Assembly: GCF_902832885.1 (NCBI RefSeq) | Contig: NZ_CADFDK010000006.1 | Coordinates: forward strand, 62,001-126,000 | Source of the DNA: Burkholderia seminalis DSM 23518 | Lineage (GTDB): Bacteria > Pseudomonadota > Gammaproteobacteria > Burkholderiales > Burkholderiaceae | Direction of reading: 5' to 3' | DNA: 64,000 nucleotides | Shown: one piece after another, positions 7,969 through 63,452 of the stretch | How the letters are laid out: the number at the start of each line of letters is the position of its first letter | Numbering within the stretch: position 1 is the stretch's first letter | Program-made: the position numbers and the translations under genes | Notes under the pieces: generated by a model | Database searches by the model: none | What the model was told of the DNA's origin: nothing | The model's input: the letters and a program-made list of their open reading frames with translations, nothing else

Positions 7969-8155
7969 AGCCACGCCGTTTCAGGCGGCAGACATGGATG
8001 CCGCAATTCTGCAGGTTACATCTCGAGCGGAATCGAACCAGCGGTCCGCCAAGGCCCGTGGATAAACGCAAGCGCCCTGCTGCTTCAGGCTCGGTGCTTC
8101 AACGCTGAATGACGCAAAGGCCGATGAAACATGCGACATCTGTATTGAGCTGGCG

Positions 8156-11007: not shown

Positions 11008-11622
11008 TTACATCGGAGGTGCGACGCCATCCTTCTCGACCACGATCTGGCGTCCGTCGTAGGCCCCGTCCTTGCCCGGCGTGGCCACGACGAAGATCTT
11101 CTTGCCCGTCGACAAATCGGCGCGCGTCGCTGGGACGAGCGTCACGACCGGTGCGTCGGGCGGCACCGTGATCGTGTTGCTGCCGCCCTTGTACGACAGC
11201 TTGAGATCGCGCCCGCTCGTGCCTTGAACGACCGTATCGACACTGGCGTTCGTCATCGTGCTGTTCGCGGCGAGATCCCATGCATAGTGGCCTTCACCCA
11301 TGCCGCGCGCGGCTTCGGGGAACACGAGCACTTCCTTCGCGATCAACTTGCCGTTCTCGCCCGGCATGGCCGCCGCGCCGACATAGGAACCGGGTTTGAT
11401 ATCGGAAAGCTGAATCGCCTTCACCGCGTTCACGTTGGCCGACGGTGCGACATTGATGAGCACGGTCTCGCCGCTGCGGCGGTGTACCTTCAGGCTGCTG
11501 CCGGAAAACGAGACGATGTCGCCGCGAATGCGCTCGGGCTTGCTCGCAGCGGATTGCGCGAGCGCACTGCCGGCCAGCGTGGCCGCGACGACGGAAGCGA
11601 CGAGTTTGAGTCGAATGGACAT
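11008..11622 (-). CDS. Exported DUF5666-like protein
   Basis: 204 residues with a clear Sec signal peptide (basic start, hydrophobic stretch, cleavage after ALA near residue 22). The mature part contains repeated beta-rich units of the DUF5666/OB-like kind (RIRGDIVSFSGSSLKV, then DLKLSYKGGSNTITV). It is the last gene of a minus-strand set with a periplasmic molybdoenzyme and a cytochrome b, which suggests an accessory periplasmic role. No catalytic motif is visible. The same trio recurring elsewhere would support a functional link. Confidence 0.75.
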   Translation of the reverse strand: MSIRLKLVASVVAATLAGSALAQSAASKPERIRGDIVSFSGSSLKVHRRSGETVLINVAPSANVNAVKAIQLSDIKPGSYVGAAAMPGENGKLIAKEVLVFPEAARGMGEGHYAWDLAANSTMTNASVDTVVQGTSGRDLKLSYKGGSNTITVPPDAPVVTLVPATRADLSTGKKIFVVATPGKDGAYDGRQIVVEKDGVAPPM

Positions 11623-11685: not shown

Positions 11686-12477
11686 TCAGGAACCGCCAAA
11701 CCAGTTGTATCCCTGGTTTTCCCAATAACCGCCCGGGAATGCGTTGGTCACCGTGATGGCGACGATATGTTTGGGATTCTTGTATCCGAGCTTGGTCGGC
11801 ATGCGCAGCTTCATCGGGAAGCCGTACTTCGCCGGCAAGACGCTGCCGTCATAGGTGAGCGTCAGCAGCGTTTGCGGATGGAGCGCAGTCGGCATGTCGA
11901 TGCTCGTCCAGTAGTTGTCGGCGCAATGCAGCGCGACGTACTTCGCGGTGGTGTCGGCGCCGGCGCGCAACAGGAAGTCCGAAAATCGCACGCCGCCCCA
12001 CTTCCCGATCGCGCTCCACCCTTCGATGCAGATATGCCGCGTGACTTGGCTTTCCTGCGGCAGCGCACGGAGTTCGTCGAGCGTCCACGCACGCTTGCCT
12101 TTGACCAGTCCGCCGACCTGGAGCCGATATCTCGCCGCATCCACGTCCGGCACCTGATCGATGTCGTAATACGCATTGAACGGGAAAGGCCGCGCGATCA
12201 TCGACTCCGGATACGTCGGCGCAAGCTTGCGCGGATCGAACAGCAACGCCTGCACGTCGTCGTTGAACGACGACACGCGGCGCAGCATCGTGTTCACCGA
12301 CTGGTCGTCGGTCAGCTCGCAGCCGGAAAGCAGCATCAGTCCGCCGAGCGTGAGGATTCGCTTGCCGAACAGGCGGCGTTGCGTCGACTGGAGTGCGTTG
12401 CGCGCATCCTTGACGATCGCATCCGCATCGAGCTGCGAGACGCGATCGGCGTGGGGGGAACGTTTTGGCTCATGCAT
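11686..12477 (-). CDS. Molybdopterin-dependent oxidoreductase, sulfite-oxidase fold (MsrP/YedY-like)
   Basis: 263 residues with the Oxidored_molyb domain. The cysteine that ligates molybdenum is in HICIEGWS (C150), followed by the conserved GKWGGVRFSDFL. The N-terminus has RRLFGKR followed by a hydrophobic run and LLSGC (C53), so the protein looks like a twin-arginine exported lipoprotein rather than the soluble form typical of MsrP. The adjacent upstream gene encodes a cytochrome b that would supply electrons from quinol, as MsrQ does for MsrP. The substrate may be an oxidised methionine, a sulfoxide or another oxo compound; this is inference. Confidence 0.85.
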   Translation of the reverse strand: MHEPKRSPHADRVSQLDADAIVKDARNALQSTQRRLFGKRILTLGGLMLLSGCELTDDQSVNTMLRRVSSFNDDVQALLFDPRKLAPTYPESMIARPFPFNAYYDIDQVPDVDAARYRLQVGGLVKGKRAWTLDELRALPQESQVTRHICIEGWSAIGKWGGVRFSDFLLRAGADTTAKYVALHCADNYWTSIDMPTALHPQTLLTLTYDGSVLPAKYGFPMKLRMPTKLGYKNPKHIVAITVTNAFPGGYWENQGYNWFGGS

Positions 12478-12479
12478 GA

Positions 12480-13127
12480 TCAGCGCCCTCGAATCATCGT
12501 CAGCAGTGAGCGCGGAACGAGCGCGACCATCACGATGTGAACGGCAAAAAAACCGACGATCACGCTCATGGCGACGAAATGAACGACGCGCGCGTTGTCG
12601 AATCCACCCATCAATGTCCGCAGGACCGGGAACTGCACCGGTTTCCAGATAGCGAGCCCCGACAGCACGAGCAGCCCGATATCGAGGAGCACGCCGAGAT
12701 ACGCGAACTTCTGCACGGCGTTGTACCGTGCCGGATCGTCATGACCCAGCTTTCCGCGCAGCGCGGCGGCGAGGTCGGAAAAGACCGCCCGCATGCCGAG
12801 CGGCAGCAGCTTCCTGCGCAACCGCCCGGTTGCAATGCCGAGCACGAGATAGACGAACAGGTTGCCGGCCAGGATCCACATCGCCGCGAAGTGCCACAGG
12901 AGCGCACCGCCCAGCCAGCCGCCAAGCGTGATGGAAGGCGGAAACGTAACCGTCCTGAAAATCGGCGATGCGTTGTAGACCTGCCAGCCGCTCAGGCACA
13001 GGGCGATGACTGCGGCGGCATTGAGCCAGTGGAAAAGACGAACCCACAGCGGATGAATCGTCGAGCGCTTCAAAGCGAACGTCCTCGTAACCTTGCGGAT
13101 GGTGCGCGGGCCATGCCGTGGTGACAT
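12480..13127 (-). CDS. Membrane cytochrome b, electron donor to the molybdoenzyme
   Basis: 215-residue integral membrane protein of the cytochrome b561/Ni-Fe-hydrogenase b-type fold with about four membrane helices. Likely heme-ligating histidines include H25 and H33 (HPLWVRLFHWLN) and further ones in later helices. The start at 13127 is preferred over the longer frame because the family begins at the HPLWVRLFHW segment and because a palindromic operator (13169-13186) lies just upstream. The stop is two bases from the molybdoenzyme start, so the two are coupled. It should pass quinol electrons to the periplasmic Mo protein. Confidence 0.85.
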   Translation of the reverse strand: MSPRHGPRTIRKVTRTFALKRSTIHPLWVRLFHWLNAAAVIALCLSGWQVYNASPIFRTVTFPPSITLGGWLGGALLWHFAAMWILAGNLFVYLVLGIATGRLRRKLLPLGMRAVFSDLAAALRGKLGHDDPARYNAVQKFAYLGVLLDIGLLVLSGLAIWKPVQFPVLRTLMGGFDNARVVHFVAMSVIVGFFAVHIVMVALVPRSLLTMIRGR

Positions 13128-13168
13128 GGGCGTGACGAGAAGGATCGCAATTGCCGCGACGCGCCGGT

Positions 13169-13186
13169 ATCGGTCGAACGACCGAC
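13169..13186. promoter_or_regulatory. ATCGG-N8-CCGAC palindrome upstream of the cytochrome b operon
   Basis: One of four ATCGG-N8-CCGA(T/C) sites in 13.1-19.3 kb. It lies 42 bases before the cytochrome b start and shares the inner TCGA with the site at 14413. Only its last base departs from perfect half-site symmetry. Confidence 0.5.
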
Positions 13187-13260
13187 CCCGGTCGGACTCC
13201 TGCCGAGCCGATGTACAGGCGGCCGGCCGGAACAACGGCGGCAGGCCGCCGAGGGACGCG

Positions 13261-13730
13261 TCAGCGAGGGCCGACCAGCCGCAGGTACGCTTCGACGTCG
13301 AGCACGCTCAGCCCCTCGCGCGCATTGAAGGTGGCGGATTTATCCCGCCACATGCCGTCACCGTGCCCGAAAGCGACCCGATAGCGCGCCATCACGTCGT
13401 CGGGGGTGGCGACCAGGTCGGCGTTCAGTGTGTCGAGACTCCATGCCGTCTTCACGAAGACGCGGCCGGTGACCCGCTCGACGGGCTTAGTCAGGCGGCG
13501 CCGACACCTGGGCGCCTGTGTTGACGCTCCGGGGTTCGCGAGCAGGACCCGGATGGTCAGCTTGCCCGCGTCTTTGGGGGGGGCGTGGCGGTCACCCTCG
13601 TGTCCCAGCTGCCGAGCGCATGCACCGCGCCGCAACCGAACTGCCCTGCCCCCGGGACGATCATGTCGTCGGCCACGCCGACCGCCATACTGCCGGCGCC
13701 GACGAAGGCCATGGCGACCGCTGACAGCAT
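13261..13730 (-). pseudogene. Frameshifted small exported protein
   Basis: Reading from an ATG at 13730 gives a signal-peptide-like start (MLSAVAMAFVGAGSMAVG) and continues to a Pro run encoded over eight consecutive G on the plus strand (about 13576-13583). There the frame must shift to continue into KLTIRVLLANPG. A second disruption occurs near 13500-13530, after which a coherent C-terminus (VERVTGRVFVKTAWSLDTLN to RLVGPR) follows to the stop at 13261. Intact length would be about 155 residues. It begins 29 bases after a thioesterase gene, so it was probably the second gene of that operon. Either a decayed gene or indel errors. Family not recognised. Confidence 0.55.
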
Positions 13731-13759
13731 GTCCGCGCCCGGCTACGCATCGCGGTGCG

Positions 13760-14305
13760 TCAGGTTTGCAGGACCGATTCCGCACGCACCGTCATCCCGC
13801 CCTCGGCCCGGCTCCATTGCACGACCCATTCGGGCAGATCGGGCGATGGCTGGGTCACGCCGATCCGCGCCAGTAGTTCGTCGGTCGGCACGGTGCCGCC
13901 GCCGCGCTTCAGGAACCGCGTTCGCACGACGCCGAGCGCGACCTCGACCCCGCCACGCCTGAACCCCTGCTCCAGAAACACATGTTTTTCGTCCCAACCG
14001 ATCACACGCGTCGTGACGTCGTAACGCTCCCACAAATGCAGCGATCGATGAAATCGTATCGTCTCGAGCGTGACGACGGGATACCACTTTTGCGCATTGA
14101 CGCGCGGCCACACGCGCGAGCGCAGCAACAGATCGACCCGCCCCAGATCGAGAATGGCGAAGTAGCGGCCATTCGTCATGTGGCGCAGCACATCGAGGTC
14201 ATTGGGCCACACGCGGAACGGCGTGACGCAGGTGTCGAGGACATGCAGTCGCCGACGTCGCCGGCTCAGCAGGAACGTAACGCACAAACGCAACAGTAGA
14301 TTCAT
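13760..14305 (-). CDS. Acyl-CoA thioesterase-like protein (THEM6/4HBT hot-dog fold)
   Basis: 181 residues, hot-dog thioesterase superfamily. NDLDVLRHMTNGRYFAILDLGR matches the active-site region of 4HBT/FcbC-type enzymes (D, H and N positions), and the following strand (VVTLETIRFHRSLHLWERYDV) is typical of THEM6-like proteins. A short hydrophobic N-terminus (MNLLLRLCVTFLL) may anchor it to the membrane. The ATG at 14305 is the only start before the family domain. A palindromic operator lies about 105 bases upstream, and a broken small gene follows. Probable function is hydrolysis of an acyl-CoA or acyl thioester; the acyl group is unknown. Confidence 0.82.
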   Translation of the reverse strand: MNLLLRLCVTFLLSRRRRRLHVLDTCVTPFRVWPNDLDVLRHMTNGRYFAILDLGRVDLLLRSRVWPRVNAQKWYPVVTLETIRFHRSLHLWERYDVTTRVIGWDEKHVFLEQGFRRGGVEVALGVVRTRFLKRGGGTVPTDELLARIGVTQPSPDLPEWVVQWSRAEGGMTVRAESVLQT

Positions 14306-14412
14306 GAATGGTGGGGGTTGACGGTGCCGGGGCAGCGCGCGCGTCGCGGCATTCGTACCGAAGGGGAAGCCATCGAAGCGCCCCAGATTACGCGACGACC
14401 CATGCCACGCGT

Positions 14413-14430
14413 ATCGGTCGAGTGACCGAT
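14413..14430. promoter_or_regulatory. ATCGG-N8-CCGAT palindrome upstream of the thioesterase gene
   Basis: Perfect half-sites, extended to a 10-bp inverted repeat CGTATCGGTC/GACCGATACG (14410-14433) with a GAGT centre. It lies between the stop of the HD/LuxR regulator and the thioesterase start, so it most likely regulates the latter. It may also act as a 3' hairpin for the regulator transcript. Confidence 0.55.
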
Positions 14431-14523
14431 ACGGCTGGAGTGACCGCCCGGCGCTGGCGGCCCGCTCGCGCGACGGCGACATCGCCGAATCACGATACGT
14501 TGCGACCGGGCAAGGCTCTATCG

Positions 14524-16014
14524 CTACAGCAGCCCCATCGCCGACGCCTTGAGTGTGGCTGCCGCGCGCGTCGAGCAATCGAGCTTGCGAAACATGCTTT
14601 CGACGTGGGTGCGCACGGTGCTCGGGCTCATCGCGAGCGCGCGCGCGGCTTCCTTGTTGCTCGCGCCGCGCGAGATCACGCGCAGCACGTCCATCTCCCG
14701 CGCCGACAGCCGCGCCCCCTGCGTGGCGCGTTTCGCGAACCGTCCGCCCGTGGGTGCCGGCTCCACGATCGCATCGACCGCTTCGTTGCTCAACCGGCCG
14801 CGCTCGACCTCTTCGCGCAACACCTGCCTGGCGGCTTCGGCCGACAGCGCGTCGCGCCAGGGCCGTGGCGAACGCAGCGCCACCCACGCTACCGAGGCGG
14901 CCAGCACACGCGCCTCGAGCGTCAACGCACGGCCGGCTGCCCCGCGGAAGTATCCCGATCCGTCCTGCCGCTCGTAAGCGTGGGAAGCGAGCTCGGCGGC
15001 CTCGGCGAGGGCCCCGGTTTGCCTGCCGGCGCGCGCCGTCCAGTACGGCACCAGCCGAATCTTTTCCCACGCGCTGGCCGGCAGCGTCTCGCGCTGATTC
15101 CACACCGCGTTGGGGACGGCGGCACGGCCTATACCGTGAATCAACGCAGCCTGGTAGACGCGCGCCTGCGCCGTTCGATCGAGTGCAAGCCGCTCGCAGC
15201 TTGCCGCCGCGGTCGTCGCGACCGCACGCGAAAAGCCCGTCATCCAGGGCAACTTGAGATCGATCACATCGGCGATCAGTTCGGCCGAGGTCGTCCGTTG
15301 CATGTCGGGCGTGATCAGCGCGGCGTCGAAATCGTCGAGCGTCGCACGCCCGACCTCCTCCAGCCAGCCGCTTGCGTTCCTGACGGCCGTTCCGACGAGA
15401 TGGGCCGGATATCGACTGTCGGAACGCTGCTCGATGAGCTCGAGCGCCCGCTCGATGCCATGGGTACGACCGAAAACCTCCAGGTCGCCCGCCAGCGCGA
15501 CCACAAACACGGGCATCGGCACCGCGTCGCGAGCCATGTTCGCGGGAAACCCCGCGCCATCCCACGTTTCGAAGATGTGACGGAGCGACGTTGCCGTCAT
15601 GCCGGACAGGCCCGACATGCTCGCAATCTCTCCCGATACCTCGCAGTGAGTCTGCGCGAGCGGCAACATGACGGACGCTGCGCCACCCAGCGCCTCCAGC
15701 GGCGCCGCCCAGTCGGATCGTCCCTCGAGCATCGCCAGCCTGATCGCGATGTCGTCGCCGAACACGTCGGCGAAGCCCGCCGCGTTCGCGGTGCAGCCCG
15801 ACCAGCGCAGCAGCGCCACCTCGCGCACCGTATCGCAAGTCTGCGAATCGAGCCCGGCCGCGCGCGCGAGTCGCGCCGCCAGCCATCCGGTGCGCAATGA
15901 ATGGTCGGTCGGCTGTCCCATGCTGAGGTCCCCGACGAACGCGAGCGCTCTTACCGAATCGAACACCCGCAGCGTGTTCTGGTTTGCATCGACGTCGAAC
16001 GTGGGCATGGACAC
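14524..16014 (-). CDS. Degenerate HD-GYP domain fused to LuxR-type DNA-binding domain
   Basis: 496 residues. The N-terminal three quarters follow the HD-GYP phosphohydrolase plan, but the signature residues are altered. The first HD-like part has HSLRTGWLAARLARAAGL without a matching HD pair. The later part has HGIGR where HDIGK is expected, and SHAYERQDGSGYFRG where HHERxDGSGYP is expected. The C-terminus (about 430-496) is a LuxR/GerE helix-turn-helix (LSAREMDVLRVIS ... STVRTHVESMFRKLDC). This suggests a one-component regulator that senses a ligand with a non-catalytic HD domain. Four copies of one palindrome near neighbouring genes make it a candidate for their regulator. Confidence 0.85.
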   Translation of the reverse strand: MSMPTFDVDANQNTLRVFDSVRALAFVGDLSMGQPTDHSLRTGWLAARLARAAGLDSQTCDTVREVALLRWSGCTANAAGFADVFGDDIAIRLAMLEGRSDWAAPLEALGGAASVMLPLAQTHCEVSGEIASMSGLSGMTATSLRHIFETWDGAGFPANMARDAVPMPVFVVALAGDLEVFGRTHGIERALELIEQRSDSRYPAHLVGTAVRNASGWLEEVGRATLDDFDAALITPDMQRTTSAELIADVIDLKLPWMTGFSRAVATTAAASCERLALDRTAQARVYQAALIHGIGRAAVPNAVWNQRETLPASAWEKIRLVPYWTARAGRQTGALAEAAELASHAYERQDGSGYFRGAAGRALTLEARVLAASVAWVALRSPRPWRDALSAEAARQVLREEVERGRLSNEAVDAIVEPAPTGGRFAKRATQGARLSAREMDVLRVISRGASNKEAARALAMSPSTVRTHVESMFRKLDCSTRAAATLKASAMGLL

Positions 16015-16136
16015 GGAAAATCGTGGAGATCACCGCAGATCATACGCGAGGCCTACGATGCGATGTACGCGGCGCTTCGCCCCCCGCGACGGTGCGCAGC
16101 GTCCGCGTGAACAGGCGCCCTGCCGTTACATGCACA

Positions 16137-16166
16137 TTGACATCGGAACCGATCGGTCCATATAAT
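16137..16166 (+). promoter_or_regulatory. Consensus sigma-70 promoter with embedded TetR operator
   Basis: TTGACA (16137-16142) and TATAAT (16161-16166) are both perfect consensus hexamers separated by 18 bases. The spacer holds GGAACCGATCGGTCC (16145-16159), nearly the same as the palindrome before the exporter gene at 16855. Binding of the TetR protein there would block its own promoter. Confidence 0.85.
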
Positions 16167-16208
16167 GAAGGCCACTTTCAAGCACCGCATCATTTGCGAT
16201 ACTGACCG

Positions 16209-16805
16209 ATGGCAAATCCGGCTGGCGTGGGCCGCCCCCGCGAATTCGAACTTGGCGATGCCGCGCGCGACGCGATGGAGGTTTTCTGGGACCACGGCTA
16301 TGAAGGCGCGTCCCTGCCCGACCTGATGGCCGGCACCGGCTTGTCGCGCGGCAGTCTTTACAAGGCATTCGGCGACAAGAAGGCGCTGCTGCTGGCGGCG
16401 CTCGACCTGTATATGGCCGACGGGCTCAAGGCGACCGCGGACATCCTGTCGCAACCCGGCCCCGTGAAGGATGCGATTCGCGACTCGCTGCTGCGCTATG
16501 CGCACCTGTCCGTCGGCGAGGCGGGCCGGCGGGGGTGCCTCGCGGTCGCGATGACCACCGAACTGGCCGCGCGCGACGCGGATGTCGCGGAGCGCACGGG
16601 GCGCATGTTCCGGCGCCTGCAGCAGCTCTATGCGGGCGCGATCGTCCGCGGCCAGGCGAGCGGCGAGATCGCCGAGCAGGACGAACAGGTGTTGGCGCGT
16701 CTGCTCGTCTGCCAGGTCGAAGGCATGCGCGTGCTGGGGAAAACCGGCGTACCCGAGCGCGACATGCTCGCGCTGGTCGACCGCACGATGCGCCTCCTCG
16801 ACTGA
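16209..16805 (+). CDS. TetR/AcrR-family repressor
   Basis: 198 residues with the N-terminal TetR helix-turn-helix (about residues 15-60; GYEGASLPDLMAGTGLSRGSLYKAFGDKKALL) and the C-terminal ligand-binding part of the TetR_C_16/YcdC-like branch. Its promoter carries consensus -35 and -10 boxes with a GGAAC...GG(T)TCC operator in the spacer. A matching operator precedes the MFS exporter 50 bases downstream of its stop. The simple model is autorepression plus repression of the exporter, released by a toxic ligand. A well-conserved YKAFGDK points to the group that regulates DHA2 exporters. Confidence 0.92.
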   Translation: MANPAGVGRPREFELGDAARDAMEVFWDHGYEGASLPDLMAGTGLSRGSLYKAFGDKKALLLAALDLYMADGLKATADILSQPGPVKDAIRDSLLRYAHLSVGEAGRRGCLAVAMTTELAARDADVAERTGRMFRRLQQLYAGAIVRGQASGEIAEQDEQVLARLLVCQVEGMRVLGKTGVPERDMLALVDRTMRLLD

Positions 16806-16822
16806 ATTTTTTTACCCAATTT

Positions 16823-16838
16823 GGAACTAATCGGTTCC
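16823..16838. promoter_or_regulatory. TetR operator before the MFS exporter
   Basis: GGAACTAATCGGTTCC is a near-perfect palindrome between the TetR stop and the exporter start. It matches the operator inside the tetR promoter at GGAAC, ATCGGT and the closing CC, indicating one regulator for both. Confidence 0.7.
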
Positions 16839-16854
16839 GTATGGAGAGCCGTTG

Positions 16855-18336
16855 ATGTCACAAAATGATCCCGTCTCGCCCGACCCGCGTCGCTGGGCGA
16901 TGTTTTCGGTCCTGCTCGTCGGCGCGTTCCTGCCGCCGCTGGACTTCTTCATCATCAATGTCGCGCTGCCGTCGATCCGCGCGGAGCTGGGCGCCTCGTC
17001 GTCGGCCGAGCAACTCGTCATTTCGTCGTATGCCGGACTGTACGCGGTGACGCTGATCACCGGCGGACGGTTGGGCGACCTGTTCGGCCGCGGTCGCATG
17101 TTCTTTCTCGGGTTGATCGGATTTGCGACGGCCTCGATGCTGTGCGGCCTCGCCAGCTCGCCGTGGACGCTCATCGTCGGTCGCGCATTGCAGGGCGTGA
17201 CGGCCGCGATCATGGCGCCGCAGGCACTCGCCTCGATCCAGGCGATCTTCCCGGAAGCGGAGAAGCCGCTCGCGCTCAGCCTGTATGGCGCGGTGTTCGG
17301 CCTCGCCGCCGTGGTCGGGCAGGCGCTGGGCGGGATCCTGATCTCGCTGAACCTGCTGAACCTGGGTTGGCGCACGATCTTCCTCGTCAATCTGCCGCTG
17401 GCGATTCTGGTCGTGCTGTTCGGGATTCCGCTGTTGAAGGAAACGCGCGCGCAGCATGCGCGCAAGCTCGACCTCGGCGGCACCGCGCTGTCGATGCTGA
17501 CGCTGGGCGCGCTGATCGTGCCGCTGATCGAGGGACGCGAAGCGGGCTGGCCCGTCTGGGCATGGGTGTCGCTGCTCGCGGTGCCGGCCCTCGCCGCGTG
17601 CTTCTGGCGCTACGAGCGCCGGCTGGGCAGCCGCGGCGGCGCACCGCTGCTCGATCCGGCCGCGCTGCGCGCGCCAGGGCTGGGACGGGCATTGCTGATC
17701 GCGCTGCTGCTGTATGCGATCGGTGGGTTTTTCCTGCTGTTTTCGGTGTATCTGCAAAACGCGTTGCACGTCGACGCGCTGAGCGCGGGCCTCGTGTTCT
17801 TGCCGTTCGGCGTGGGGTTCCTGCTCGGGCCATTGTCGACGCCTTTCTGCACACGTGTCATCGGCGCTTACGTCAATCCGTTCGGCATGGGGCTGGAGGT
17901 CGTCGGGCTCGTCGGCCTCGCGTGGTTGATCGATGCCACGCCGATCGGGATGCCGCTCGCGTCGGTCCCGCTCGCCGCCGCGCTGTTCGTCATCGGTTTC
18001 GGACAGGGGCTCGCGCTGCCCACGCTGATGCGCATGGTGACCGGGCGCGTCGCACCGGCGCTTTCCGGCATGATCGCCGGCATTGCCAGTTCGACGCTGC
18101 AGGTCAGCACGTCGCTCAGCGTCGCGATCATCGGCGGAATTTTCTATACGGTCCTGGGCACGCGCCAGGATCCGGCGGCCATTGCGCACGCGTTCATCGT
18201 CGCGCTTCTCTCGATTTCGTTGTTCCTCGCCGCCGGCGCCGCGCTGGGCATCTCGCTCGCTCGCGCGCCCGCCGCGCCGACCTCGGTGCGGGCGGCCGCC
18301 CGGCCGGGCTTCGGCCCTGAACGCAATCGGCCGTAG
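16855..18336 (+). CDS. MFS exporter, DHA2 family (EmrB/QacA-like)
   Basis: 493-residue inner-membrane drug:proton antiporter with about 14 predicted helices. The MFS motif A region reads GGRLGDLFGRGRMFF, and motif C-like glycine/proline patterns follow in the fifth helix. It starts at the ATG at 16855, directly after an in-frame TTG. A TetR operator sits in the 50-base gap after the repressor gene, so it should be induced with it by its own substrate. The EthD-domain gene 51 bases after its stop may be co-transcribed. Likely role: efflux of a hydrophobic toxicant; substrate unknown. Confidence 0.92.
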   Translation: MSQNDPVSPDPRRWAMFSVLLVGAFLPPLDFFIINVALPSIRAELGASSSAEQLVISSYAGLYAVTLITGGRLGDLFGRGRMFFLGLIGFATASMLCGLASSPWTLIVGRALQGVTAAIMAPQALASIQAIFPEAEKPLALSLYGAVFGLAAVVGQALGGILISLNLLNLGWRTIFLVNLPLAILVVLFGIPLLKETRAQHARKLDLGGTALSMLTLGALIVPLIEGREAGWPVWAWVSLLAVPALAACFWRYERRLGSRGGAPLLDPAALRAPGLGRALLIALLLYAIGGFFLLFSVYLQNALHVDALSAGLVFLPFGVGFLLGPLSTPFCTRVIGAYVNPFGMGLEVVGLVGLAWLIDATPIGMPLASVPLAAALFVIGFGQGLALPTLMRMVTGRVAPALSGMIAGIASSTLQVSTSLSVAIIGGIFYTVLGTRQDPAAIAHAFIVALLSISLFLAAGAALGISLARAPAAPTSVRAAARPGFGPERNRP

Positions 18337-18386
18337 TCGCCCGTCTCGACATTCATCGTTGCATCAGTCCGACCTGGAGAGGCCTC

Positions 18387-18695
18387 ATGTATTTCGTCGT
18401 TTCCTATCGCCGAGCCGCGGGTACCCGGTTCGATGTTCGCTACTACGTCGAGCAACACATTCCGCTGGTGGAGAAATCCTGGAAACGGTACGGGCTCGAA
18501 TATGTCGATGCCTTCTTCCCCTCGAGAGAGGACAGCGAACTGATCGTCGTGGCGATGTGCCGCTTCGTGGATCGGGCCGCGCTGGACGCCGCGTTCGCGT
18601 CGGCGGAGGCGGTGGACGTCATGGCCGACATCGACGCGTTCACCGATATCGCGCCCGATCGGCACATCACGGATGTCGTCTCGTACGCGCAGTAA
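18387..18695 (+). CDS. EthD-family protein
   Basis: 102-residue dimeric alpha-beta barrel protein of the EthD family, related to small stress-response and ether-degradation accessory proteins. YYVEQHIPLVEKSW near residues 20-35 and the C-terminal pattern (DIAPDRHITDVVSY) fit. A good ribosome site (ggagagg) precedes the start. It follows the TetR-controlled exporter by 51 bases and probably belongs to that transcript; a role in handling or sensing the exported compound is possible but unproven. Confidence 0.85.
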   Translation: MYFVVSYRRAAGTRFDVRYYVEQHIPLVEKSWKRYGLEYVDAFFPSREDSELIVVAMCRFVDRAALDAAFASAEAVDVMADIDAFTDIAPDRHITDVVSYAQ

Positions 18696-18736
18696 CGGCG
18701 GTTGCGCGCCGCCATGCGTCAGTTCTGGCCGGCTCC

Positions 18737-18754
18737 ATCGGTTATTTGTCCGAT
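18737..18754. promoter_or_regulatory. ATCGG-N8-CCGAT palindrome before the short DUF308-like gene
   Basis: Perfect ATCGG and CCGAT half-sites, extended to CCATCGG/CCGATGG (18735-18756). Located 73 bases before the start at 18827 and 41 bases after the EthD gene. The AT-rich centre (TTATTTGT) is a weak hairpin loop, so operator use is preferred to termination. Confidence 0.5.
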
Positions 18755-18826
18755 GGCCCCCGCGAACGGCCGGATGCCAGGATAGGCAACCGTCACGCGA
18801 GTGACCGAACCGTGAGGGCGGCCGCC

Positions 18827-19126
18827 ATGTCGGAACGTCAGCGCTTCATCGTTGCATTGGCGAGCGGCCTGCCCCGGGCGCTCGGCATATTCGCCGTGCT
18901 GTCGGGGGTGCTGCGGATCGGCATCGCCGTGGCGCGCCGGCGGGATGCCGGCACGTCATGGCGAACGATCTCGGCCGGCGCGCGAACGGCACTGGCCGGC
19001 GCGCTGCTTTCCTGCGAAGCGATGGGTGCCGTCTACTTCGCGATCGCGGCGCTGGGCGACCGATGGGCGGACGCCGGCGCGCCTGCGCCAGATCGCCCGG
19101 CACGAGAGAACGACGGGCCGACCTGA
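18827..19126 (+). CDS. Short DUF308-like membrane protein (partial paralogue)
   Basis: 99 residues with two or three hydrophobic helices. Its core (GIFAVLSGVLRIGIAVARRR ... ALAGALLS ... GAVYFAIAAL) lines up with the C-terminal half of the next gene's product (GIWAILSGALQLGTAVRRW ... ALAGLFF ... GALYFLISAV), so it is a diverged partial copy. There is no N-terminal half upstream in any frame that I can see. It may be a functional small membrane protein or a remnant. An ATCGG-N8-CCGAT palindrome precedes it, as it does the full-length relative. No ribosome site of note. Confidence 0.55.
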   Translation: MSERQRFIVALASGLPRALGIFAVLSGVLRIGIAVARRRDAGTSWRTISAGARTALAGALLSCEAMGAVYFAIAALGDRWADAGAPAPDRPARENDGPT

Positions 19127-19195
19127 ACGGCACAACCGTCATTGTCGATACGCGAGATACCCTGCATCGGCCTGGGCAACCGCCGAACCTTCACC

Positions 19196-19213
19196 ATCGG
19201 ACATCCGACCGAT
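19196..19213. promoter_or_regulatory. ATCGG-N8-CCGAT palindrome before the DUF308 gene
   Basis: Perfect half-sites 105 bases upstream of the start at 19318. Its right half reads GACCGATA, exactly as in the site at 14413. Confidence 0.5.
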
Positions 19214-19317
19214 AGCGGCAGCCCCCGACGATTGAGATACTCGGCGCATTGGAGATCCGGTCAGCTGCGCCCCTGCCCGCCGACCGGCACGATGATTCGA
19301 TATACAAAGGAGTGCAA

Positions 19318-19893
19318 ATGGTTAACAGCCGCCCCGAATTCCATGCTCCAGCCGACGGTCGATGGCTGAAACGGTACTACTTTTCCAGGGCGATATTCTC
19401 GCTGATCTGGGTCGCGCTGGCGTTTTCCGTCGGGCGGCAGAGCGCGGCCTGCGCAGCGATCCTGTTGGTCGTTTATCCGGCCTGGGACGCGCTCGCCAAT
19501 TTCGTCGACCTGGCTCGCAGCGGCGGGACGGCAGCAAATCGTACGCAGGCGGTCAACGTCGCGATCAGCGCCGTCGCGACCCTGGCGGTATTAGCGGCGT
19601 TGAATGCTGGCATGCACGCGGTACTCACGGTGTTCGGCATCTGGGCCATTCTCTCCGGTGCGCTTCAGCTCGGCACCGCCGTGCGTCGTTGGAAGCATGT
19701 CGGCGCGCAGTGGGTGATGGTCCTGAGCGGTGCGCAATCAGCGCTGGCCGGTTTGTTCTTCATTGTCCAAAGCCACGCATCCATGCCGCCCGCGATCGTG
19801 AAGATCGCAGGCTACGCGGCGATCGGCGCCCTCTATTTCCTGATATCGGCCGTTTGGCTGCAGGTGCGGCGGATGCAGCGCAGCAAGTCGTGA
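19318..19893 (+). CDS. DUF308-family membrane protein
   Basis: 191 residues with about five to six membrane helices, consistent with the HdeD/DUF308 family of small inner-membrane proteins, some of which are linked to acid or envelope stress. The start at 19318 has aaaggag upstream. It follows a partial paralogue (18827-19126), and both have the same palindromic site in front, so a duplication with shared regulation is likely. No enzymatic motif. Exact role unknown. Confidence 0.8.
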   Translation: MVNSRPEFHAPADGRWLKRYYFSRAIFSLIWVALAFSVGRQSAACAAILLVVYPAWDALANFVDLARSGGTAANRTQAVNVAISAVATLAVLAALNAGMHAVLTVFGIWAILSGALQLGTAVRRWKHVGAQWVMVLSGAQSALAGLFFIVQSHASMPPAIVKIAGYAAIGALYFLISAVWLQVRRMQRSKS

Positions 19894-60576: not shown

Positions 60577-63452
60577 GCGAGCACCTCCTGAATCTTTTGC
60601 GGGGTCACCGGCAGGTCGGTGAAACGATGGCCGATCGCGTGCGCGATGCCGTTCACGATCGCGCCGACGACGGGAATCATCACCACTTCCGCGACGCCCT
60701 TCGGCGGATCGGTCTCGGACAGCGGCGGCAGCACGTCGCCCGTTTGCGTCCACACGGCGACGTCCGACGCGCGCGGCAACCGATAGCGGTTGAAGTTCCA
60801 CGTGCCGTTGCCGGGACCGTCCTCGTAGAGCGGCAGGTACTCGTGCAGCGCATGGCCGATGCCCATCGCGAGGCCGCCCTGCAACTGGCCCGACACGAGC
60901 TGCGGCGAGATCTGGTTGCCGCATTCCATGATCGAGTGGTGCGTGAGCAGCTCGACCTTGCCGGTCGCTTCATGCACGGCCAGCTCGACGAGCGTGCCGA
61001 CCGCCGTGTAGTGCGTGACGGCCGCGTTGTTGCGGCTCGTCGGCGGGATGAACACGCGCTTGCGGTCCAGCACGCGATAACCGTTCGCCGTCGGCGCCAG
61101 CGTGCCGTGCATCGCGGTCGCGCCGGCCGGCGCGGCGGTACCCGGCACCGGGCCGCTGTCGGCGCCCGTCTTCGGCGCGCCGACACGCAGCGACAGCCCG
61201 TCGATCGGCAGACGTTCAACCGTGCCGCCCACTTCGAACTCGGCATCGGTCCACTGCCAGCGGTTGAACACGTGCACGACGGCGCCGGTCGGCAGGCCGA
61301 GCGCATGCGCCTGCTTCGCGAGCTGTTCGAACGTCAGCGGCTCGAGGCCGTCGGCGGTCAGCTTGCCGTCGACCCAGCGCGCGTCCTCGATACGAATCGT
61401 GTACGGCGCGGCCTGGCCGCCGCCGAGGCCGCGCGTCCAGATCGACATCGCGGCCGGCCACAGGCCGTAGCGGAACACCGCACGTGCGGCTTCGCGCGTG
61501 CTGTGCGTGAAGTAGTAGGCCGAGTTCGTCGCGCTCGATGGCGACGCGTAGCCCGGCGACCAGCGCGGGTTCGCGCTCAGGCGATCCTGGTCGGCCTGCG
61601 ACATCAGGTACGGATCGCCGCTCGTCTCGACCGGCAGGTCCGGCCATTCGATCACGGCCACACGCACGTCCGTCGCCGGACGACCGAGCCATTTCGCGAC
61701 CGCGACGGCCTGCGACGTCGACATCCCGGTGCCGATCTCGGCCGCCGTGTGCTGCAGCGACACCTTGCCGTTCTCGTCGAACTCGACCTTCGCGAACGAC
61801 GCTTCCGCGCCCGTGCCGAAATCCTTCTGCACGCATGCGAAGCCGACGCCGTAGCGCTGGCCCGGGTGCGCCGCCTCGAATTCGGCCTTGCGCGCGACGC
61901 GACGCGTCCACAGCGGATGCTGCCTCGCGCGCTCCAGCACCTCGTCGACGCGCAGCGCGCCGGCGGGAATCGCCCCCTGCGTGTTCTTCATCCCCGAACG
62001 CAGCGCGTTGCGCAGACGAAAATCGATCGGATCGATGTTCAGCTGCGCGGCGATCTCGTCGACGGCCATCTCGGTCGCGGCCATGCTCTGCAGCGTGCCG
62101 TAGCCGCGTGCGGAGCCGGCGTCGATCGCGCGCGACGCGATCGCGACGGCGGCGAGGTCGCTCTTCGGGAAGTAGTAGATCGATTGCGCGGCCGTGGCGC
62201 CGACCATCGCGACCGACGGCGAGAAGTTCGAGCGCCCGCCGCCGTTCGCCTCGAAGTCGCCCTTGAACGACTGCAGCAGGCCCGTGTTGCGGTCGACCGC
62301 GATCCGGTAGCGCATCTTGAACGCGTGACGCTTCAGCGACGTCTGGAACTGCTCGTAGCGATCGTTCGCGAAACGCACCGGACGCCCGTCCGCGTACAGC
62401 GCGCAGACAAGGCCGTAGAACGGCACGTTGAAGTGATCCTTCGAGCCGTAGCCGACCGTGTAGCACGGATGCACGAACAGCTTCTTCACCGGGAAGCGGC
62501 ATTTCGCGACCATCGCGGCCGCGTTCTCCGACACTTCGAGCGGCGACTGCGTCGGCACGACGAGGTGCAGCGCCTGCGTCGCGGCGTCGTACCAGCAGTT
62601 CGCGTTGTCGGGTTCGAGCGCGGCCGTGTCGACCGACTGCGTGTTGTATTCGCGCTCGAACACGAGCCAGTCGGCCGACGGATGGTCGAGCTCGCCGGCG
62701 ATCTGCCCGGCCAGGAACATGCCCTGCTCGTCGAGCTTGCCGTGCTCCTTGCCGTCCGGCCACACCGGCAGGTGCTTGCGCATCATGCTCGGGAAGATCG
62801 GCGCGTCCTTCAGGCTCGAATAGACATCGTCGTCATAGGCCGTCTTGCCGCCCACGCGCACGTAGCGGAAGGTCCCCCACGGGTCGCGCTCGAGCGGGCC
62901 CGTGACCGCGCCGTAGCGGATCACGTCGTCGCGGAACTTGAGCGCGTTCTTCGCGAAACGGAAGCGCGCGAAGTCGTGATAGATGAGGATCGCGACCGCA
63001 TGACCGAGGTACGCGGGCGTCTTGCCGGCCGGCAACAGCATGTCGTCGCCGTAGAACGCCGGGAACGCGACGCCGTCGCGCGCGAGATCGTCGGCCGTGA
63101 CCACGCGGTCCGGCTTCAGGTCGTCGCCGAGCAGCGACAGGTCGAAACCTTCGTACGTGCGGTCGGCCTGCGTGACGCGCAGGATCAGCGCATGCGACTG
63201 CTGCTGCGGCCAGTGCGGCATGTCGGCGGCGCGCACGTCGCGGGCGAACACTTTCGCGCCCGTGACCTTCGCGATGCCGTCGATGCGGAATTGGGGGATG
63301 CCGGTGACGCTATCCCATTTGACAGGGGTGAGGAGTTTTTCTTCGAAGAGCGCCGCGAATGCGCGGCTGCCGAGGGGCGCGACATACACCGCGACGCCCG
63401 CCAGCACGCTGGCTTTCAGAAAACCCCGCCGTGACAGGCCGTGGTTTTTCAT
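60573..63452 (-). CDS. Molybdopterin-binding subunit of an aldehyde/heterocycle dehydrogenase
   Basis: 959 residues. A twin-arginine signal (SRRGFLKASVLAG, residues 6-18) directs it to the periplasm with its partners. It is longer than the 739-residue left-hand subunit. Family glycine-rich contacts include GYGSKDHFNVPFYG and CGNQISPQL-like stretches near the C-terminus. The start at 63452 is chosen because it precedes the signal; an earlier in-frame start adds a poor 22-residue extension. Substrate class (aldehyde, nicotinate-type heterocycle) is not distinguishable. The operon starts about 96 bases downstream of an inverted repeat. Confidence 0.9.
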   Translation of the reverse strand: MKNHGLSRRGFLKASVLAGVAVYVAPLGSRAFAALFEEKLLTPVKWDSVTGIPQFRIDGIAKVTGAKVFARDVRAADMPHWPQQQSHALILRVTQADRTYEGFDLSLLGDDLKPDRVVTADDLARDGVAFPAFYGDDMLLPAGKTPAYLGHAVAILIYHDFARFRFAKNALKFRDDVIRYGAVTGPLERDPWGTFRYVRVGGKTAYDDDVYSSLKDAPIFPSMMRKHLPVWPDGKEHGKLDEQGMFLAGQIAGELDHPSADWLVFEREYNTQSVDTAALEPDNANCWYDAATQALHLVVPTQSPLEVSENAAAMVAKCRFPVKKLFVHPCYTVGYGSKDHFNVPFYGLVCALYADGRPVRFANDRYEQFQTSLKRHAFKMRYRIAVDRNTGLLQSFKGDFEANGGGRSNFSPSVAMVGATAAQSIYYFPKSDLAAVAIASRAIDAGSARGYGTLQSMAATEMAVDEIAAQLNIDPIDFRLRNALRSGMKNTQGAIPAGALRVDEVLERARQHPLWTRRVARKAEFEAAHPGQRYGVGFACVQKDFGTGAEASFAKVEFDENGKVSLQHTAAEIGTGMSTSQAVAVAKWLGRPATDVRVAVIEWPDLPVETSGDPYLMSQADQDRLSANPRWSPGYASPSSATNSAYYFTHSTREAARAVFRYGLWPAAMSIWTRGLGGGQAAPYTIRIEDARWVDGKLTADGLEPLTFEQLAKQAHALGLPTGAVVHVFNRWQWTDAEFEVGGTVERLPIDGLSLRVGAPKTGADSGPVPGTAAPAGATAMHGTLAPTANGYRVLDRKRVFIPPTSRNNAAVTHYTAVGTLVELAVHEATGKVELLTHHSIMECGNQISPQLVSGQLQGGLAMGIGHALHEYLPLYEDGPGNGTWNFNRYRLPRASDVAVWTQTGDVLPPLSETDPPKGVAEVVMIPVVGAIVNGIAHAIGHRFTDLPVTPQKIQEVLA

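Follow-up and report, generated by a model that had tools for sequence, protein, structure and literature searches.

We have analysed a 64-kb window (the whole stretch of 64,000 nucleotides, positions 62,001 to 126,000 of contig NZ_CADFDK010000006.1) from Burkholderia seminalis DSM 23518, in which four copies of one palindrome lie upstream of genes grouped around that for a LuxR-type protein. The original prediction, made from the sequence of the window, was that the palindromes define a regulon and that this protein, with a degenerate HD-GYP domain, is its candidate regulator. The genes and palindromes are as follows; E is the expectation value, and for the palindromes it refers to a model described below, searched against the own genome.

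11008-11622, minus strand: third gene of the cytochrome b operon, labelled DUF5666 in the original prediction; it travels with the operon in relatives
11686-12477, minus strand: second gene of the operon, molybdopterin oxidoreductase with an MsrP-like fold domain (PF00174, E 1.4e-30)
12480-13073, minus strand: cytochrome b561-type gene (PF01292, 84.7 bits against a cut-off of 30.1, on 12480-13124)
13169-13186, minus strand: palindrome (predicted operator) of the cytochrome b operon, GTCGGTCGTTCGACCGAT in gene orientation; E 1.8e-9
13760-14305, minus strand: 4HBT-type thioesterase gene (PF13279, 67.5 bits against a cut-off of 25.5)
14413-14430, minus strand: palindrome of the thioesterase gene, ATCGGTCACTCGACCGAT; E 0.0029
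14524-16014, minus strand: candidate regulator of 496 amino acids, two HD-GYP-like halves and a GerE (LuxR) DNA-binding domain, from Pfam, structure and conservation
18737-18754, plus strand: palindrome of the small DUF308-like gene, ATCGGTTATTTGTCCGAT; E 0.0035, outside the training set
18827-19126, plus strand: small DUF308-like gene (PF03729 at 15 bits, under the cut-off of 25)
19196-19213, plus strand: palindrome of the larger DUF308 gene, ATCGGACATCCGACCGAT; E 1.2e-6
19318-19893, plus strand: larger DUF308 (HdeD-like) membrane protein gene (PF03729 at 31.5 bits, above the cut-off of 25)

The start of the cytochrome b561 gene is our reading of a TTG near 13073; the open frame extends further upstream. 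The second gene of the operon had been described as MsrP-like, and it does match PF00174, but it scores 74.2 of the 207 bits required by the MsrP equivalog of NCBIfam. The DUF5666 label of the third gene is not confirmed: Pfam gives no DUF5666 at E ≤ 0.1, and only DUF6152 (18.6 of 27 bits) and OTU1_UBXL below threshold. We keep the label in quotation marks as a handle.

The palindromes are where they had been placed. ATCGGN8CCGAT is exact at 14413, 18737 and 19196 and has one mismatch at 13169, and each copy lies upstream of its gene in the correct orientation. The window has three exact copies. Over 100 dinucleotide shuffles the mean was 0.30, and no shuffle had as many as three. With up to one mismatch 9 copies are seen where 5.5 are expected, and 9 of 100 shuffles have at least as many; with up to two there are 76 against 58.6. 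The claim that the sites exceed chance by far is thus upheld for exact matches and their clustering but not at the one-mismatch level, and the signal therefore lies in the former. A scan of the 7.97-Mb genome went against the simple motif: it has 43 exact places, and for this reason ATCGGN8CCGAT was rejected as a genome-wide definition of the regulon. Of these places 40 fall outside the window, and in 37 of the 43 position 6 or 13 is a G or C. Sites with the ten fixed bases are real, but about 16 positions are constrained, and a better consensus is the 18-base-pair (bp) ATCGGWC-RNNY-GWCCGAY. Exact matches to the refined pattern, ATCGGWYNNNNRWCCGAT, number four in the genome, three of them within the window.

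The refined-pattern scan of the own genome gave 22 places, 18 outside the cluster. Six near-matches outside the cluster were examined (L162-L167, on contigs 31, 4, 1, 2, 9 and 5), five of them among those 18, and none lies beside a recognised target family. The one on contig 31 (L162, near 3976) is ATCGGTTTTTTGTCCGAT, matching at 14/16 positions directly past the stop of a long open frame, and may represent a terminator-like hairpin instead of a site of the regulon.

A single scan across the genome collection yielded 63 loci (L059-L121). Sixty of these (L059-L118) have a gene for an HD/LuxR orthologue that is 49-90% identical to the protein of the window (partial in L118), and L119-L121 have partial matches only. 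The orthologues come from Burkholderia, Paraburkholderia, Caballeronia, Trinickia, Pararobbsia, Cupriavidus, Variovorax and Bradyrhizobium. Conservation upstream of orthologous genes, which the original prediction had named as a check, is found: the 60 loci and the window hold 82 palindromes that match at 15 or more of 16 positions, of which four belong to the window and two fall within the regulator gene. For comparison, scans of the same 60 loci with six scrambled decoys gave 0, 0, 0, 2, 1 and 0 matches. In 39 of the 60 loci a palindrome of at least 14/16 is also present in the 220 bp ahead of the regulator gene. The palindrome stands ahead of a rotating set of targets, and accompanies the genes as they relocate between loci. 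The set comprises the larger DUF308 gene, the small DUF308-like gene, the operon of cytochrome b, molybdopterin oxidoreductase and 'DUF5666', and the 'DUF5666' gene alone; relatives add a cupin (PF07883) and an alpha/beta hydrolase (PF12697). The thioesterase is a target in the window, L060 and L084, and a protein without a Pfam match is one in L104 and L105. Nine of the ten Variovorax loci (L109-L118) share one arrangement, with the palindrome first, then the hydrolase and then the regulator; L115 is without a site. A conserved match of the ATGGGACAGCCGACCGAT type, near 8085 of the loci, lies inside the regulator gene at its start; as coding sequence it was not kept on the gene map.

The strongest new evidence for a regulon is a fixed distance from the palindrome to a -10-like hexamer. 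Removal of near-copies reduced 84 target-side sites from the window and relatives to 51, and in 48 of these a hexamer of the form NANNNT begins precisely 22 bp past the palindrome; the next best spacing is found in only 4 of 51. On the regulator side there is no fixed spacing (best 5/34). At the window background frequency of 0.030 the binomial chance of 48/51 is about 1e-69, which is only a guide because the promoters are related by descent. The hexamers in the window are:

13141-13146, minus strand: GATCCT with TGC ahead, 22 bp past the 13169 palindrome
14385-14390, minus strand: TAATCT, 22 bp past the 14413 palindrome
18778-18783, plus strand: CAGGAT, 23 bp past the 18737 palindrome (22 bp in the relative L078)
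19236-19241, plus strand: GATACT with TGA ahead, 22 bp past the 19196 palindrome

If the hexamer is the -10 element, the palindrome spans about -52 to -35, which is the layout of a class II activator. No TTGACA-like -35 is recognisable in the consensus of the target promoters.

The element also follows the regulator from genome to genome. We compared 44 regulator-positive genomes (42 of 200 at E ≤ 1e-60, plus G003 and G023) with 47 negatives of the same genera, chosen by us out of 158 without a match. The positives contain 60 strict palindromes, 46 of which lie within 6 kb of the regulator against about 0.03 expected at the rate of far sites. A 51-bp model (R1) was built of palindrome, 22-bp spacing and -10, with window site 18737, L077 and L102 left out beforehand; 13169, 14413 and 19196 were in the training set. 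At E ≤ 1e-3 it has 46 matches in 34 of the 44 positives and none in the 47 negatives, where the best is partial at E 1.3e-3; the filters in these searches were stricter, at the cost of weak matches. Of the 46, 41 are no more than 6 kb from the regulator, and the five far ones are all ahead of target families: the cytochrome b operon (G194 and G091), a molybdopterin/'DUF5666' pair (G089), a DUF308 gene (G091, where the gene has one internal stop) and a cytochrome b remnant beside a cupin (G079). Three of the five are outside the training set. In the own genome the first four matches are the reported sites; the next is partial at E 0.064, and the model search found no further full element there.

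The target proteins were counted in 33 positives (leaving out G120, G134, G137, G151, G158, G165, G172, G179, G190, G198 and G209). The larger DUF308 protein (E ≤ 1e-20) is present in 18 of these and in none of the 47 negatives, and the 'DUF5666' protein (E ≤ 1e-30) in 24/33 against 17/47. Cytochrome b promoters were examined in 9 of those 17 negatives, together with three regulator-distant copies in positives (G218, G146 and G049). None of the 12 has a palindrome, the best score in 450 bp being 10-12/16 in every case, so the operon can occur with no site, for the most part in settings where the regulator is absent or far away. The palindrome-free operons (L231-L242) fall into two conserved promoter types: ATGACAAAAAAGTCAT followed by GTCAT repeats in L235-L239 and L242, and a TGGAATA-containing type in L231-L234, L240 and L241. 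This suggests that other regulators control the operon in those loci.

Several observations weigh against the regulon reading. In the window there is no palindrome within the regulator's own upstream gap, and the regulator loci L107 and L115 lack one at ≥ 14/16. Seven of the 44 positives have no strict site near the regulator; six of the seven loci were examined and five counted as having weaker sites. Such 14-15/16 sites are seen in G021, G023, G133, G134, G161 and G190 (L168-L171, L176 and L177), and in G194 the site belongs to an operon far from the regulator. Of the 14 distant strict sites in positives, five were examined; three precede target operons and two do not. Strict matches occur in 20 of the 47 negatives, 25 in all; among the five examined (G017, G106, G122, G175 and G069) only that of G017 is beside cluster genes. 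Between E 1e-3 and 1e-2 the model has 12 matches in positives and 5 in negatives. Finally, the test with the model is not fully independent because positive genomes overlap training loci (e.g. G021 with L086 and G190 with L094, whose contigs are equally long); the comparison of strict palindromes is independent of the model.

In G017 (L157, near 4078), which has neither regulator nor DUF308 matches, a 16/16 palindrome lies beside EthD, MFS and TetR genes; perhaps it is a relic of a lost cluster. No palindrome was seen in the loci of a distant homologue (G034, L179; 36% identity) or of a match to the DNA-binding domain (G029, L178).

Conservation of the targets and the tracking of the regulator by the element support the original proposal, and on this comparative evidence we consider it highly probable that the protein of 14524-16014 and the palindromes make up a small regulon under activation. 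The regulator would dimerise, and the two GerE domains of the dimer would contact the 18-bp palindrome. LuxR acts as a class II activator at its box. Bound at about -52 to -35, the regulator would likewise recruit RNA polymerase, as suggested by a promoter that has no -35 and whose -10 is weak, though often extended. It would turn on the cytochrome b/molybdopterin oxidoreductase operon, the thioesterase and the two DUF308-like proteins, and in relatives the alpha/beta hydrolase and cupin. The targets comprise proteins of the membrane or for export, a cytochrome b with its molybdopterin oxidoreductase, and small enzymes of the hydrolase or thioesterase kind; tentatively, this suggests a function in envelope or redox adaptation.

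In the regulator Pfam finds HD_5 at residues 246-404 and GerE, the DNA-binding domain of LuxR-type transcription factors, at 435-489. It finds no autoinducer-binding N-terminal domain of the kind in quorum-sensing LuxR proteins; HD_5 is there instead. The HD-GYP fold is present, with V-cGAP3 and DvhD as the nearest folds. V-cGAP3 (PDB 5z7c) aligns over residues 13-423 (two phmmer segments, 24-89 and 117-403), and the layout is the same HD-[HD-GYP], an N-terminal HD-like half followed by an HD-GYP half. The domain is indeed degenerate. In an alignment of 35 regulator proteins (leaving out L093, which has a stop codon, and L094) most metal ligands are replaced, and none of the proteins has the full set of catalytic metal ligands and the GYP of an HD-GYP phosphodiesterase. 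HD reads HG and GYP ends in F in 35/35; the third H and the first H of HH are replaced in 35/35, and the first H (gHS) and the second H of HH in 34/35. H293 is kept.

The HD-GYP domain of DvhD (PDB 9rbz) is reported to be an inactive receptor for cyclic di-guanosine monophosphate (c-di-GMP) in a membrane protein that controls a protease (PMC13090378). Most of the positions at which DvhD contacts the nucleotide are retained or similar here. R384, E402, W257 and K254 are invariant in 35/35, and K318 (26/35), Y355 (27/35) and L311 (26/35) are partly kept; W386 (26/35) and L380 (34/35) are substitutions of similar kind. The sensor may be a cyclic-dinucleotide phosphodiesterase that has lost its activity and serves to bind c-di-GMP or a similar nucleotide as a receptor; we hold this role for the HD-GYP part possible, at somewhat short of an even chance. 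The regulator could be right and the HD-GYP part yet bind no nucleotide, serving as a dimerisation scaffold or as a protein-interaction or redox sensor. We give this about equal odds of being true or false: residues of the domain are widely conserved in any case (mean column identity 66%), R569 of DvhD is not kept (position 303 of the regulator), and the Variovorax regulators differ at several contact positions; set against this are the four invariant contact residues together with replaced metal ligands, as in DvhD.

The palindrome abuts the promoter and several NarL/LuxR-type proteins repress, so the HD/LuxR protein might repress its targets and release them on a signal. This is improbable, given that there is no recognisable -35 and that the strict spacing to the -10 fits contact with RNA polymerase rather than occlusion. 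Binding by a different conserved regulator, with the HD/LuxR gene merely a neighbour or a target, is less probable again. A palindrome (≥ 14/16) within 220 bp upstream of the regulator, between divergent genes, in 39 of the 60 loci would suit it, as would the TetR gene that adjoins the cluster in the window; however, the element follows the HD/LuxR gene genome by genome, targets distant from the regulator still have it, and the TetR gene is missing from many loci and has different operator-like palindromes of its own. Chance clustering of four palindromes, for which the 43 exact places in the genome and the lack of enrichment at one mismatch might speak, is contradicted by conservation, the spacing rule and co-occurrence and can be dismissed.

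The activator now proposed can be set beside known systems. GerE activators of the LuxR/TraR/NarL type act from lux-box-like sites near -42. It shares with them the GerE domain and, in its predicted site, a dyad of 18-20 bp abutting the -35 of promoters with a poor core; it differs in its sensor, two HD-GYP-like halves instead of an autoinducer-binding or receiver domain, and in its dyad, ATCGGTC-N4-GACCGAT. VpsT (PDB 3kln) is a c-di-GMP-responsive GerE-domain regulator that binds the nucleotide through a receiver-like domain. The GerE part matches that of VpsT and the protein here is possibly also a transcription factor driven by a cyclic dinucleotide, with HD-GYP in place of the receiver-like sensor. 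V-cGAP3 is a 3'3'-cyclic GMP-AMP (3'3'-cGAMP) phosphodiesterase of Vibrio cholerae, whereas here the metal ligands are replaced and a DNA-binding domain is added. A DNA-binding domain also distinguishes the regulator from DvhD, which has none; the ligand here is predicted.

Each part is of a known kind, and the combination appears to be new. We found no description of the regulon or of an HD-GYP/LuxR activator in the open-licence literature, which is weak evidence as few subscription journals are covered. More tentatively, and with some doubt, we propose a family of one-component activators in which a dead tandem HD-GYP, as a direct receptor for c-di-GMP or 3'3'-cGAMP, is fused to a LuxR domain and controls a compact envelope/redox regulon from a dyad at fixed distance from the -10. 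An unannotated palindrome thereby becomes a putative regulon with a promoter grammar, one candidate regulator and a set of targets in Burkholderiaceae, Variovorax and one Bradyrhizobium. If the sensor binds a cyclic dinucleotide, this would add a receptor class derived from a dead degrading enzyme, and a new route coupling the nucleotide to transcription. DUF308 proteins, the molybdopterin oxidoreductase/cytochrome b operon and the alpha/beta hydrolase would be tied to one signal, and their function is therefore testable.

We note that three Paraburkholderia-type genomes (L059, L060 and L084) have copies of the regulator with 89-90% identity, against about 70% for those in other genomes of its own genus, so that transfer of the cluster from one genus to another is possible. 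An open frame of 174 amino acids (13261-13785), situated between the 13169 palindrome and the thioesterase gene, has no Pfam match, is absent from the map of relatives and is possibly a decayed gene. The TetR gene (16209-16805) is flanked by a distinct palindrome, which also stands ahead of the MFS gene: GGAACCGATCGGTCC at 16145-16159 and GGAACTAATCGGTTCC at 16823-16838; these are probably TetR operators.

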